Source of the DNA: a virus
Reading direction: 5' to 3' (one strand)
DNA length: 20,659 nt
IMG/VR virus record: IMGVR_UViG_3300027770_000303
Coordinates: 1 to 20,659 of that record
Below the pieces are notes generated by a model. It was not told the origin of the DNA and did not search any database. It saw only the letters and a list, made by a program, of their open reading frames with translations. The position numbers and the translations under genes are program-made. Shown here piece after piece: positions 2,393-5,609 of this stretch (position 1 is the first letter of the stretch; the number at the start of each line of letters is the position of its first letter).

Positions 2393-4366
2393 CTACCCCT
2401 TCCCGTAGCGCGTCATTATACTCGTCTCGATCCCCAGCGGCAGACCGGCGGCCCATGCGGGCGGCGTACACATCGCGCGCTGCATGGCCTGCTCGGCTGC
2501 TTCAGGATCTGTCGTCTCCAGCACGATCTCATCGTGGACATGCAGCACGGGTTCAAACCCGTCAGCGTCCAGCGAACGCAGAGCGTAGCGCAGAATATCG
2601 TTGGCCGTCGCCTGCGTGACGTTCTCGCAGGCCAGACCCCGCCACAGGCGGGCGCGGGGCCATTCCTTGGCGTCTGCGGCGGGCTTCCATGCCGCCTTGG
2701 CGTAGGTGACGCCGTCTTCCTCCAATCGAGCGTATGGGTAGCAAAGGATGCGCCCAGACGGCAGAGCGTACCAGAGGTGGACGCCGTCGAACAAGTAAGT
2801 GATCCGCCCGGCGGTGAACTCCTTACCCTTGTGGCGCATGGCGGCGGTGTAGCACCGCTCCAGACCTTCCCAGAACGGCATGGCCCACGGGTTGGCTCGA
2901 CGCCAGCCGTCCACCATGCGCTTGGCCTCTGGTTCAGGCAAGAGCAAACCGTAGACGCGGCCCATCGCCGCGAACGCGCCGACGCCACCCGCGAAACCAC
3001 ACGCGAGTTCCTGGACCTTGCCGACCTGGCGCTGGTCGCCCGTCACCTCGGCGACAGGCACACGAAACGTTGCGGATGCGTTCACCTTGTAAACGTCGCC
3101 GCCATTGCGGAAGATCTCCAGCTTGTCATCGCCCCGGCCAGACAGCCACGGATTGACGCGCGCCTCAATGGACGACCAGTCAGCCACTACCAGCGCAGCG
3201 CCGTCCTGCGCCAGCAGCGCCGGGCGCAGCATCTGCTTCAGCACGTCCGTGACGCGCTTGCCGTACTGCGGGACGATCTCGCCGCCCTGCACCATCGCGT
3301 CGCGGACTAGTTCAGGTTCTTTCGCACACTTGCGCGGGAAGTTGTGGACTTGCAGTCCAAAGCTCGAAGCACGTCCCGTTGCTGAACCCCCAGCAAAGAC
3401 AAAAGCCCCACGCACTCGTCCATCGTCTCGATCAGCAAGGTTAGCGGCTCGTTGGAACTTCGCGACCGACGAAGCCCATAGGTCGTCCGCACATTGAATG
3501 ACTTCAGCGACATCAGGCGGCACTTCATCAGCGTTTTCTCCAGCGAGAATTAAAAGGTTGCCGCGCACGGATTTGTCTATAGAATACTTGGCCTCGCCAT
3601 CCTTGAAGATCGTCATCAGCTCCAGCGCCTGCGGCCCAACACGGTCCAGCACCCACTCGCGCATCTTGGGACTGCGGACGCTGGTGATCGCGCCGTCCGT
3701 CACCTCGCGCACGATCTGCTGGATCTCGTCCAACTCGGTGGTGGCGTAGCGGATCGCGGCGTTGCACAGATCGACATCGACACGGACGCCCCGGTCGTTG
3801 ACGCGCTCGTTGACGTGGTAGTCGGCCAGTTCTTCAGCGGACAGATCGCGCATACCCTTGCTGATCGCGCGCATGGCGCGCACGTCCTGCTCGCAATAGG
3901 CCACCATCTCGTCCATAAGCGTCGGATCTTGACGGAAGAACCCGTCAGCCTGCGGGATGGACAGCAAGCGGATCAGTTGCGAGCCCCGGTGGTCCTTCTT
4001 CATGGACGCGCCAGCGAAGCGCCCCACGTCCTCCAGCGAGCCCGGCGCGCAGTTGGCGCGAGCTTGCGCCGCCGTGCAGTAGAACTGCTCCAGCTTGGGC
4101 TCGCGCAGCTTCTGATCGGGACACAGTACGAACCAGAAGATCAGGCGCTCGAACGCGGCGTTGTGCGCGCGGATCTGGCCGGTGTGGTTGGCGACAGCGG
4201 CGGGGAACGGTTGCCCCGGCGTCCAAGTCGTCACTTCGCCATCATCGAAGGCGTAGGACATACACAGCACCTCAGTGCTGAGATCTTGGGCGTAGTTGTA
4301 CACGCCCCGCGAAGGCAAGTCGCAGCGACTTCTGCTTTCGAAGTCAATCCAGCATATCTCAGACAT
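2393..4366 (-). CDS. polA: Family A DNA polymerase with 3'-5' exonuclease
   Basis: This is the replicative polymerase, 657 aa from the ATG at 4366. An RNase-H-like proofreading domain comes first: Exo I is D8/E10 in IDFES, Exo II is HNAAFE at 68-73, and Exo III is YCEQD at 157-161. The polymerase domain has motif A with D396 and E401 (DWSSIEA), motif B from R446 to G461 with K450, and motif C HDE at 611-613. There is no 5'-3' exonuclease domain, as is usual in phages. Aligning K450 with E. coli K758 puts Leu454 at the 762 position. The frame is open to 4462, but that extension is only HNH-gene sequence in another frame. The chosen start begins directly with the exonuclease strand and overlaps the HNH stop by 8 nt. 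Its own ribosome site is weak (GGG 10 nt upstream), which suggests translational coupling. Confidence 0.95.
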   Translation of the reverse strand: MSEICWIDFESRSRCDLPSRGVYNYAQDLSTEVLCMSYAFDDGEVTTWTPGQPFPAAVANHTGQIRAHNAAFERLIFWFVLCPDQKLREPKLEQFYCTAAQARANCAPGSLEDVGRFAGASMKKDHRGSQLIRLLSIPQADGFFRQDPTLMDEMVAYCEQDVRAMRAISKGMRDLSAEELADYHVNERVNDRGVRVDVDLCNAAIRYATTELDEIQQIVREVTDGAITSVRSPKMREWVLDRVGPQALELMTIFKDGEAKYSIDKSVRGNLLILAGENADEVPPDVAEVIQCADDLWASSVAKFQRAANLADRDDGRVRGAFVFAGGSATGRASSFGLQVHNFPRKCAKEPELVRDAMVQGGEIVPQYGKRVTDVLKQMLRPALLAQDGAALVVADWSSIEARVNPWLSGRGDDKLEIFRNGGDVYKVNASATFRVPVAEVTGDQRQVGKVQELACGFAGGVGAFAAMGRVYGLLLPEPEAKRMVDGWRRANPWAMPFWEGLERCYTAAMRHKGKEFTAGRITYLFDGVHLWYALPSGRILCYPYARLEEDGVTYAKAAWKPAADAKEWPRARLWRGLACENVTQATANDILRYALRSLDADGFEPVLHVHDEIVLETTDPEAAEQAMQRAMCTPPAWAAGLPLGIETSIMTRYGKG

Positions 4367-4877
4367 GCTTGTACACCCGGTTGAATTTGATGGCGTTGAT
4401 TGTGCAAAGGCTGACATTGTATTCCTGCGCCAGCAAAGTTTGCGTGCCGAACGCGCAACCACGTAAACGCGCGCGTATGTCCAGCACTTGCGTTTCTGTT
4501 AACTTGCCTCGCGTGCCGTGCTTAACCGCGTCGATATTATTTTCGCTACGAGTGCCCCAACGCAAATTCTCCAACCTATTGTCGGCGGGGTTTCCGTTGT
4601 TATGGCAGCATTCGTGCTTCGCAGGGCGCGGTCCTACAAAAGTCCGAAGCACAAGATCATGAACCATACGTGTGTTTCCACGGCCTAAAACAACAGACAT
4701 ATGCCCAAAGTTAGACGGTCCAGGACGCAGAATGCGGCCTTTGACTTGCTTTGTATACGCGCGCGATTTATGTGACGCCGCGTAAACAATATCGCGCGCA
4801 AGCGAGCGAATTTCGCCGCGTTCGCTAGCCTGATACGAGCCTTCGTATCCGGGAATGTCTTTCCAGAGAATGGTCAT
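4359..4877 (-). CDS. NUMOD4-HNH homing endonuclease
   Basis: This 172-aa free-standing endonuclease is of the kind that nicks or cuts an allele lacking the gene so that the gene is copied in. A NUMOD4 motif opens the protein (WKDIPGYEGSYQAS, residues 5-18). An HNH_3 nuclease core follows, with H73, H92-N93-N94 and the NLRW element near 104-107. A helix-turn-helix-like C-terminus (about 125-168) probably binds DNA. I chose the ATG at 4877 because NUMOD4 proteins begin this way. A GTG at 4937 is in frame but its Shine-Dalgarno touches it. The gene sits between the SSB-like gene and the polymerase, and its stop overlaps the polymerase start (ATGTCTGA). GC is about 53% in sampled blocks, below that of its neighbours, which fits a mobile insertion. 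Confidence 0.9.
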   Translation of the reverse strand: MTILWKDIPGYEGSYQASERGEIRSLARDIVYAASHKSRAYTKQVKGRILRPGPSNFGHMSVVLGRGNTRMVHDLVLRTFVGPRPAKHECCHNNGNPADNRLENLRWGTRSENNIDAVKHGTRGKLTETQVLDIRARLRGCAFGTQTLLAQEYNVSLCTINAIKFNRVYKHV

Positions 4878-4896
4878 GGGGTTCTGTAGATACTCA

Positions 4897-4930
4897 CGGG
4901 CGCCAGCGGGGGGAGGACCACTGGCGCCCG
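4897..4930 (-). promoter_or_regulatory. 10-bp perfect hairpin in the leader of the HNH gene
   Basis: CGGGCGCCAG at 4897-4906 pairs perfectly with CTGGCGCCCG at 4921-4930 around a 14-nt loop. In the transcript the hairpin lies between the SSB-like gene and the HNH ATG, 19 nt before that ATG. No T run follows on the minus strand, so simple intrinsic termination is unlikely. The loop reads TCCTCCCCCC on the mRNA strand and could pair with the purine-rich Shine-Dalgarno just upstream. A role in RNA processing or in holding down endonuclease translation is inference. Confidence 0.6.
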
Positions 4931-4937
4931 CTTTCAC

Positions 4938-4945
4938 TCCTCCTT
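4938..4945 (-). promoter_or_regulatory. Strong Shine-Dalgarno with no well-spaced start codon
   Basis: The mRNA strand reads AAGGAGGA, one of the best ribosome sites in the window, overlapping the stop of the SSB-like gene. The only adjacent start is a GTG at 4937 with no spacer, which is too close for normal initiation. The next plausible start is the HNH ATG 60 nt away, beyond the hairpin. It may be the ancestral ribosome site of the polymerase gene, separated from it when the HNH gene inserted. Alternatively it may serve the HNH gene through RNA folding. Confidence 0.5.
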
Positions 4946-5597
4946 ACGCGCTGCGACGACGGCGACGCGACTCAGAAGGGGCCTCGTCCGTGGCAGCTTC
5001 CGCTGCCTCGGTTTCCGCAGCCGCACCATCCATCCCGACCCACTCGATAACCTCGAAGACGGGGGTATAGATGCGACCGTAGCTCTTGTGAATGTAATGC
5101 TCCTTCTTGAGGCGCACCACCGGGACCGGCTTGGTCTGGTCCTTATCGACCTGGGCGGCGATGGCGAGCGCAAGCTGCTGCACCGCCTTCTTGCCGCCCA
5201 CGGACGTGACCGTGTAGCGGGCCTCCAGATCCTTGTCTTCGCCAGCCATGCACTTTAGGGACATGCCGACCTGCACTTCCCAACCGCGCTTGGCGGCGGC
5301 AGGCGCAGCGTCCAGTTCAGGCAGCGGCTGCTGCACTGACACCATCTTTTCCCCAAGAACTTCACCTTCGCCCCACGCGATATAGCCGTGGACGAAGCTG
5401 AACGGGTTGATAGCCCAAGTCGAGTCATCCTCGATCTCGGTCTGCTCGGCACCGAACACCCAATGGCCGGTCTTGTCCATCTTGAGGATGACAGAACCCG
5501 CGCCGTCAGGAACGCCTGCGCTGATCGAGCGCAGACCGGGAGCGAGAGACGAAACGGAAGGAAGGTTAGCACCGGCGAATACTGTGAGATTTGACAT
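4944..5597 (-). CDS. Phage replication-module protein, probable ssDNA-binding role
   Basis: This 217-aa protein has no domain that I can name with certainty. It is rich in short beta-strand-like stretches with glycine and aromatic residues (for example WAINPFSFVHGYIAWGEGE and YGRIYTPVFEVIEWVG), as expected of an OB-like fold. It ends in an Ala/Glu-rich acidic stretch followed by a basic RRRRR tail. Phages that carry a DUF2800 nuclease next to a polymerase often have a single-strand DNA-binding protein (DUF2815) in this place, so I infer that role from position. The sequence does not look like DUF2815 itself. The ATG at 5597 is preferred over the one at 5603 because the AGGAG site is 8 nt from it and only 2 nt from the other. 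That AGGAG site overlaps the stop of the nuclease gene. Confidence 0.75.
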   Translation of the reverse strand: MSNLTVFAGANLPSVSSLAPGLRSISAGVPDGAGSVILKMDKTGHWVFGAEQTEIEDDSTWAINPFSFVHGYIAWGEGEVLGEKMVSVQQPLPELDAAPAAAKRGWEVQVGMSLKCMAGEDKDLEARYTVTSVGGKKAVQQLALAIAAQVDKDQTKPVPVVRLKKEHYIHKSYGRIYTPVFEVIEWVGMDGAAAETEAAEAATDEAPSESRRRRRSA

Positions 5598-5609
5598 TAC
5601 CATTTCTCC

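Follow-up and report, generated by a model that had tools for sequence, protein, structure and literature searches.

Described systems and the present locus

In genes 25 and 38 of phage T4, an RNA fold between the Shine-Dalgarno sequence and the AUG shortens an over-long spacing from 27 to 11 and from 22 to 5 nt, respectively (PMC3014915). A comparable fold, which would bring 57–61 nt down to about 7–10 nt, is predicted here in front of polA, the DNA polymerase gene of an uncultured phage (IMG/VR virus record IMGVR_UViG_3300027770_000303; its 20,659 bases are called the window). The leader that contains this fold appears to have been taken over by a NUMOD4-HNH homing endonuclease gene. Unlike the T4 leaders, it carries a GAAA/GAGUA loop and precedes polA, and its use as a split ribosome site is a prediction.

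The free-standing seg and mob endonucleases of T4, of which the mob proteins have HNH domains, resemble the present gene in the lack of an intron, a scattered presence, altered neighbouring sequence and overlapping reading frames (PMC2988022). In T4, however, the endonuclease start overlaps the preceding gene (PMC2988022), whereas here the polA start lies inside the endonuclease tail and the leader appears to have been taken over. An HNH gene in the methylase gene of phage ShiLan also sits inside its host gene in another frame, but reading of that gene continues across the insert (PMC11855218) and is not restarted by a stop-start overlap. An HNH endonuclease encoded in a phage polymerase intron is likewise lodged in a polymerase gene (PMC3428280); the one described here is free-standing, the search for introns having been made with Rfam only. 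The gp43 operator of T4 and RB69 is, as here, a hairpin that precedes the start of a DNA polymerase gene (PMC3014915). That operator is a different RNA, and the present element is known from sequence alone. The gp43 proteins are family B polymerases.

Precedents exist both for a homing endonuclease next to a polymerase and for a split ribosome site. The new parts are their combination, the dedicated endonuclease lineage and an RNA element without an Rfam match. The literature within reach, which left out most subscription papers, held no account of this leader or of a polA-dedicated HNH lineage that supplies the polA start.

Takeover of the polA leader

The explanation that we favour, with a probability of about 0.68, is that the HNH gene inserted into polA, captured an older split-site leader and now supplies the polA start. 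A free-standing NUMOD4-HNH gene of a polA-dedicated lineage would have entered after polA codon 5 and would use the original polA start codon and leader as its own, while its C-terminal codons would provide a new polA ATG. The older element consists of a Shine-Dalgarno sequence, a short helix (P1), a GAAA/GAGUA loop, a long hairpin (P2), 7–10 nt and the start codon; its folding in vivo would loop out the hairpin and put AAGGAGG at a working distance, thereby forming a split ribosome site. The arrival of the HNH gene would also have replaced the exonuclease-I codons of polA, as expected if those codons are the cut site.

All genes of interest lie on the - strand of the window. The HNH gene (172 aa, 4359–4877) stands between an SSB-like gene and polA, as the first-pass annotation had described, and its GC content is 0.521 compared with 0.633 for polA and 0.614 for the SSB-like gene. 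Its protein matches the Pfam domains HNH_3 (1.6e-11) and NUMOD4 (1.8e-10), with NUMOD4 and HNH_3 at 41.3 and 44.1 bits against cut-offs of 23.4 and 24.8.

Relatives were collected by scans with the SSB-like protein and polA, which gave 120 loci. In eight distinct HNH-free junctions the same TAAGGAGGAGT leader runs directly into polA, at the point where the HNH ATG stands in the window; the SSB stop is 63–67 nt from polA, and AAGGAGGA is 57–61 nt from the polA ATG. Since these relatives have the same leader before polA, and not a different one, the HNH gene took over the polA initiation region. The first-pass annotation had held that the insertion stranded the polA ribosome site, so that AAGGAGGA would be found 5–9 nt before the polA ATG in HNH-free relatives. 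This part does not stand, because AAGGAGGA is 57–61 nt away there and was therefore not displaced by the insertion. The capture of the polA ribosome site is thus right in substance, its mechanism being an older split site and not a stranded one.

At its 5' end the HNH gene shares 15 of 15 nt, ATGACCATTCTCTGG (4863–4877, codons 1–5), with the first five codons of polA in the HNH-free locus L093. Other members of the HNH lineage begin with M(x)EIWKDI or similar and the window protein with MTILW, which looks like a polA start joined to the HNH frame at a Trp codon common to both proteins. The inserted segment would then probably comprise 511 nt bounded by two TGG codons (4352–4862). Takeover is also seen with other leaders: L126 and L331, which carry the HNH gene, and L285, which does too, have leaders that closely match those of the same type in the HNH-free L323 and L074, respectively, up to the start codon.

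Five other HNH-bearing loci (L050, L075, L105, L115 and L129) have a terminator-like hairpin of their own before the HNH gene. This long hairpin, GGUAAGCCCUGUUCUGCAU...AUGCAGAACAGGGCUUUU, seems to travel with some HNH genes, and its GGCGG/CCGCC pairing may form a pseudoknot.

At the other end, polA (657 aa, 2393–4366; family A, Pfam 1.5e-18) starts inside the HNH gene. As noted at first reading, the HNH stop (4361–4359) falls within polA, whose ATG is at 4366–4364, and the overlap reads ATGTCTGA (4359–4366). The polA gene has only a poor ribosome site, with an anti-Shine-Dalgarno pairing energy of -3.8 kcal/mol. The lack of a good site together with the overlap makes the proposed coupling of polA to the HNH gene likely; ribosomes probably now terminate on the HNH gene and reinitiate to make polA. 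An HNH gene that lies upstream of polA and gives it its start would hardly be lost by simple inactivation, as an early stop is expected to cut polymerase synthesis too. A selfish gene might in this way become hard to remove.

An HNH lineage dedicated to polA

HNH relatives were taken as the best 80 of the 117 found plus the earlier loci, with at least 300 nt of downstream sequence required. All 31 relatives scoring at least 100 bits lie directly upstream of polA, as do three further ones with less than 300 nt downstream, compared with 3 of the 47 below 100 bits (one row was dropped for insufficient room). The partner polymerases reach down to about 29% identity with the window polA. On a quick tree of 82 HNH proteins, the polA label requires 4 changes, against 27.1 when shuffled; one member inside the polA-dedicated group, L020, lies just after polA instead. 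By this comparison the lineage of the window HNH is dedicated to phage polA. With the exonuclease motif excluded from its construction, a polA tree of 159 rows requires 14 changes for its 15 HNH-bearing rows, as many as random, and at least 12 of these gains or losses are forced by supported branches. Judged from the tree, the HNH gene has been gained and lost while its position is maintained.

The exonuclease codons of polA

Codons 7–14 of the window polA (4325–4348), which hold the exonuclease I motif, show 50–58% nucleotide identity to HNH-free relatives, against 86–91% over the rest of the gene (11 of 12 comparisons; L001 was dropped, its polA being cut by the contig end). No other stretch of eight codons is as low in six of the eleven comparisons, and 3 to 37 of about 635 are in the other five. 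Across related phages, the residue before the exonuclease Asp is Cys in 10 of 18 HNH-bearing contexts versus 7 of 142 HNH-free ones, and Cys goes with the HNH gene in 6–7 of 12 independent pairs, with none against (median p 0.016). In a distant polymerase group, the residue is other than Ile in 14 of 22 HNH-bearing contexts (6 Cys) versus 1 of 76 HNH-free ones (Fisher 1.3e-10, not corrected for kinship). The codon change fits cleavage near the exonuclease I codons, and codons 7–14 are likely a coconverted or recoded tract.

A stricter rule, that Cys before Asp is absent without the HNH gene, held in the first set only and was given up on the 7 of 142 HNH-free contexts in the larger one. The polA start of the HNH-free L014, MTICWIDFESRSRCD, has the ICW and ESRSR features of the HNH-bearing polA of the window; this allele may be resistant, or it may be what a lost HNH gene has left behind.

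The leader RNA

The structured leader of the window (4888–4938; 81.6 bits with the model R1 of the element) contains P1, the GAAA/GAGUA internal loop and P2. The perfect 10-bp hairpin reported at first reading is present (4930–4921/4906–4897); with G-U pairs it extends to the 14 pairs of P2 (4931–4918/4909–4896), which close an 8-nt pyrimidine loop, UCCUCCCC (4917–4910). A spacer of 10 nt (4878–4887) separates P1 from the HNH start codon. On the other side, AAGGAGGA (4938–4945) is a strong Shine-Dalgarno sequence (-12.1 kcal/mol) that sits outside any stem and overlaps the TAA of the SSB-like gene (219 aa, 4944–5603). The claim that it has no start at normal spacing is true of the linear sequence, where ATG, GTG and TTG are absent at such a distance 3' of it and GTG 4937 abuts it.

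Related leaders repeat the order P1 (AGT:ACT, GC:GC, CGC:GCG etc.), GAAA, P2, GAGTA, P1'. In an alignment of 18 leaders, 94.0% of cells are paired, 10 of 16 pairs have changed on both sides, and the covariation score was reached by none of 500 shuffles. Pair counts on 55 model matches agree, this set being larger and partly overlapping, with an alignment fitted to the model. The hairpin is thus judged to be more than chance, the proof being comparative and not from a single fold. GAA opposite AGUA is kept while the helices change, P1 being weak in the group of the window; GAA opposite AGUA between helices is the consensus of a bulged-G (loop E) module, for which the element is a candidate.

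Strong matches to R1 were found only at the SSB-polA junction in 81 + 100 sources, the weak ones being antisense, partial or at 12 bits. Later loci gave 55 matches in 91 sources and 12 in 76, each set with one weak match; several of these contigs had already gone into the model. Of 288 loci, 252 yielded a junction, and in a pattern scan of the 148 distinct junctions among them, 70 showed the type-A arrangement, counting a second form whose inner helix differs. Rfam returned nothing at gathering score for the window stretch (one chance match, E 6.2) and no match in 10 related loci or in a further 7.

Among 22 related leaders, the 17 without a site by the AUG have instead a strong one (-7.6 to -12.1 kcal/mol), AAGGAGG or AAGGGAG, just 5' of P1, and their start codon follows P1 by 7–10 nt; in the five with a near site it follows by 16–19 nt. 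The sequences show what a split site would look like, namely an over-long spacing in which a conserved fold leaves a working distance of 7–10 nt after P1. A strict trade-off of near and 5' sites (rho -0.81, 22 leaders) was also considered, and is weakened by loci that have both, e.g., L325 and L344. As a candidate for translation start that depends on RNA structure in uncultured phages, the element is compact and testable.

Other leader types were seen as well. SSB-like-polA junctions of L021, L028, L037, L049 and L055 have another leader type with no Shine-Dalgarno sequence next to polA, in which an AAGCCAG/CUGGCUU (or AGGCAGA/UCUGCCU) complementarity between loop and upstream sequence looks like a covarying pseudoknot. 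A third type, GGGGYGGYUGACAYUAUUCAG...CCGCCCC, stands before polA or cargo genes in L019, L023, L035, L036, L044, L048, L051 and L053. In L020, L034, L040, L042, L056, L058 and L066, a conserved hairpin, AUCAGGUUUUCCUUGGUCGGUUCGGCCUGAU or close variants, follows a type-A leader before polA or cargo.

Alternative explanations

Several observations weigh against the capture of a split-site leader. In the window P1 is AGU/UCU, only two pairs and a U-U mismatch, and the single-sequence fold of 101 nt is weak (z only -1.89). The junction at codon 5 rests on a 15-nt identity, and the window polA itself has Ile, not Cys, before Asp. Genes without known homing activity occupy the same slot, so that the slot, and not only the HNH gene, shows overlap with polA. 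In many related leaders an ordinary site follows the fold, in some of these alongside a 5' site, and L406 and L410 have neither. Because ordinary sites are so common, the fold did not arise to bridge the distance; with several leaders having both sites and L406 and L410 neither, split initiation probably represents a specialised use that the group of the window makes of an element with a wider role.

Such a role could be that of a protein-binding operator, or of a bridge for ribosomes finishing SSB, with AAGGAGGA not used through a looped-out fold; as the main function this is unlikely. In the operator version, the bulged-G-like loop would bind the polymerase or SSB and set the synthesis of polA (now of HNH), as gp43 does in T4. 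The conservation of GAA/AGUA amid covarying helices would be accounted for, as bulged-G modules often bind proteins (PMC7247131), and so would the persistence of the element in leaders with a site after the fold; the gp43 operator hairpin, too, lies upstream of the gp43 start (PMC3014915), and polA directly overlaps the SSB stop in 5 of 148 junctions. What this leaves unexplained is the AAGGAGG or AAGGGAG just 5' of P1, together with the 7–10 nt after P1, in leaders without a near site. In a reading of the T-even kind, the pairing of the pyrimidine loop with AAGGAGGA, which the first-pass annotation had mentioned as possible, would hide the ribosome site and delay HNH. T-even endonucleases do employ site-hiding hairpins (PMC2988022), and the pairing is possible: the match is of six bases in the window and of 5–6 bases in five lineages with a 5' site, and weaker in three without. 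It is nevertheless improbable, since the hairpin is an old polA leader that predates the HNH gene and is found in HNH-free relatives too, and no specific covariation between loop and AAGGAGGA was found: when loops were exchanged among the five lineages, 46 of 120 swaps fitted as well. AAGGAGGA lies outside the stems, and by reasoning a pseudoknot would be awkward to form across 14 bp of stem when the connecting loops are short.

A stable GC-rich intergenic hairpin might also be a transcription terminator or processing site, with a polA promoter inside the HNH gene. This is very improbable: the hairpin has no T run, and a scan of 4300–5100 gave no terminator-like and no sigma-70-like match, a weak test that leaves other kinds of promoter outside its scope. 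Least probable of all is an HNH start at GTG 4937 with a 20-residue extension. That frame is open, but its spacing to AAGGAGGA is zero, the extension is missing from the HNH family, and the frame to polA is not kept in relatives with gaps of 62, 64, 65 and 67 nt, which makes this GTG an unlikely start. ATG 4877 is the likely one because it fits the family N-terminus, MxxxWKDIPGYEG. A bolder proposal can be made, which we put forward as speculation and rather doubt: the element may be a so far undescribed family of cis-regulatory RNAs belonging to phage replication operons, a split site that responds to a ligand or a protein and is repeatedly captured by a polymerase-dedicated HNH lineage that makes an essential polymerase depend on the translation of a parasite and rewrites its exonuclease active-site codons.

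Neighbouring genes and other cargo

The gene order on the - strand is a DUF2800 nuclease, the SSB-like gene, the leader, the NUMOD4-HNH gene, polA and a primase-like gene. The name SSB-like is a guess because it is based on gene order; the protein had no Pfam match and matched only PHROG 9528 'nucleotidyltransferase'. A host scan of genomes gave only 11 contigs, all from metagenome-assembled genomes, and six of these are titled Betaproteobacteria, Burkholderiales or Rhodoferax.

Of the 148 distinct junctions, 74 hold the leader only and 53 an open reading frame (ORF) that overlaps the polA start (33 via a 4-nt ATGA). In 5 of the remainder polA overlaps the SSB stop, and 16 are long gaps without an overlapping ORF, in which a near Shine-Dalgarno sequence is mostly lacking (2/16 at -5 kcal/mol or below). 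The cargo of the slot includes cytosine methylases, a DruA-like protein and a phrog_3704 'ferredoxin'. In L081, whose polA is 94% identical to that of the window, a GIY-YIG-like ORF (L081:152-742) follows the same leader and its stop overlaps the polA ATG at 729; it is below the Pfam cut-off (0.0033, 18.1 vs 22.6 bits) and matches a phrog_1111 endonuclease at 1.6e-4. The DruA-like protein (Pfam) was seen in the slot at L102:4390-5001. By eye, the cargo of L300, L310 and L408 is a second HNH-like family, that of L303 and L332 PAPS-reductase-like and that of L318 and L368 QueD-like.

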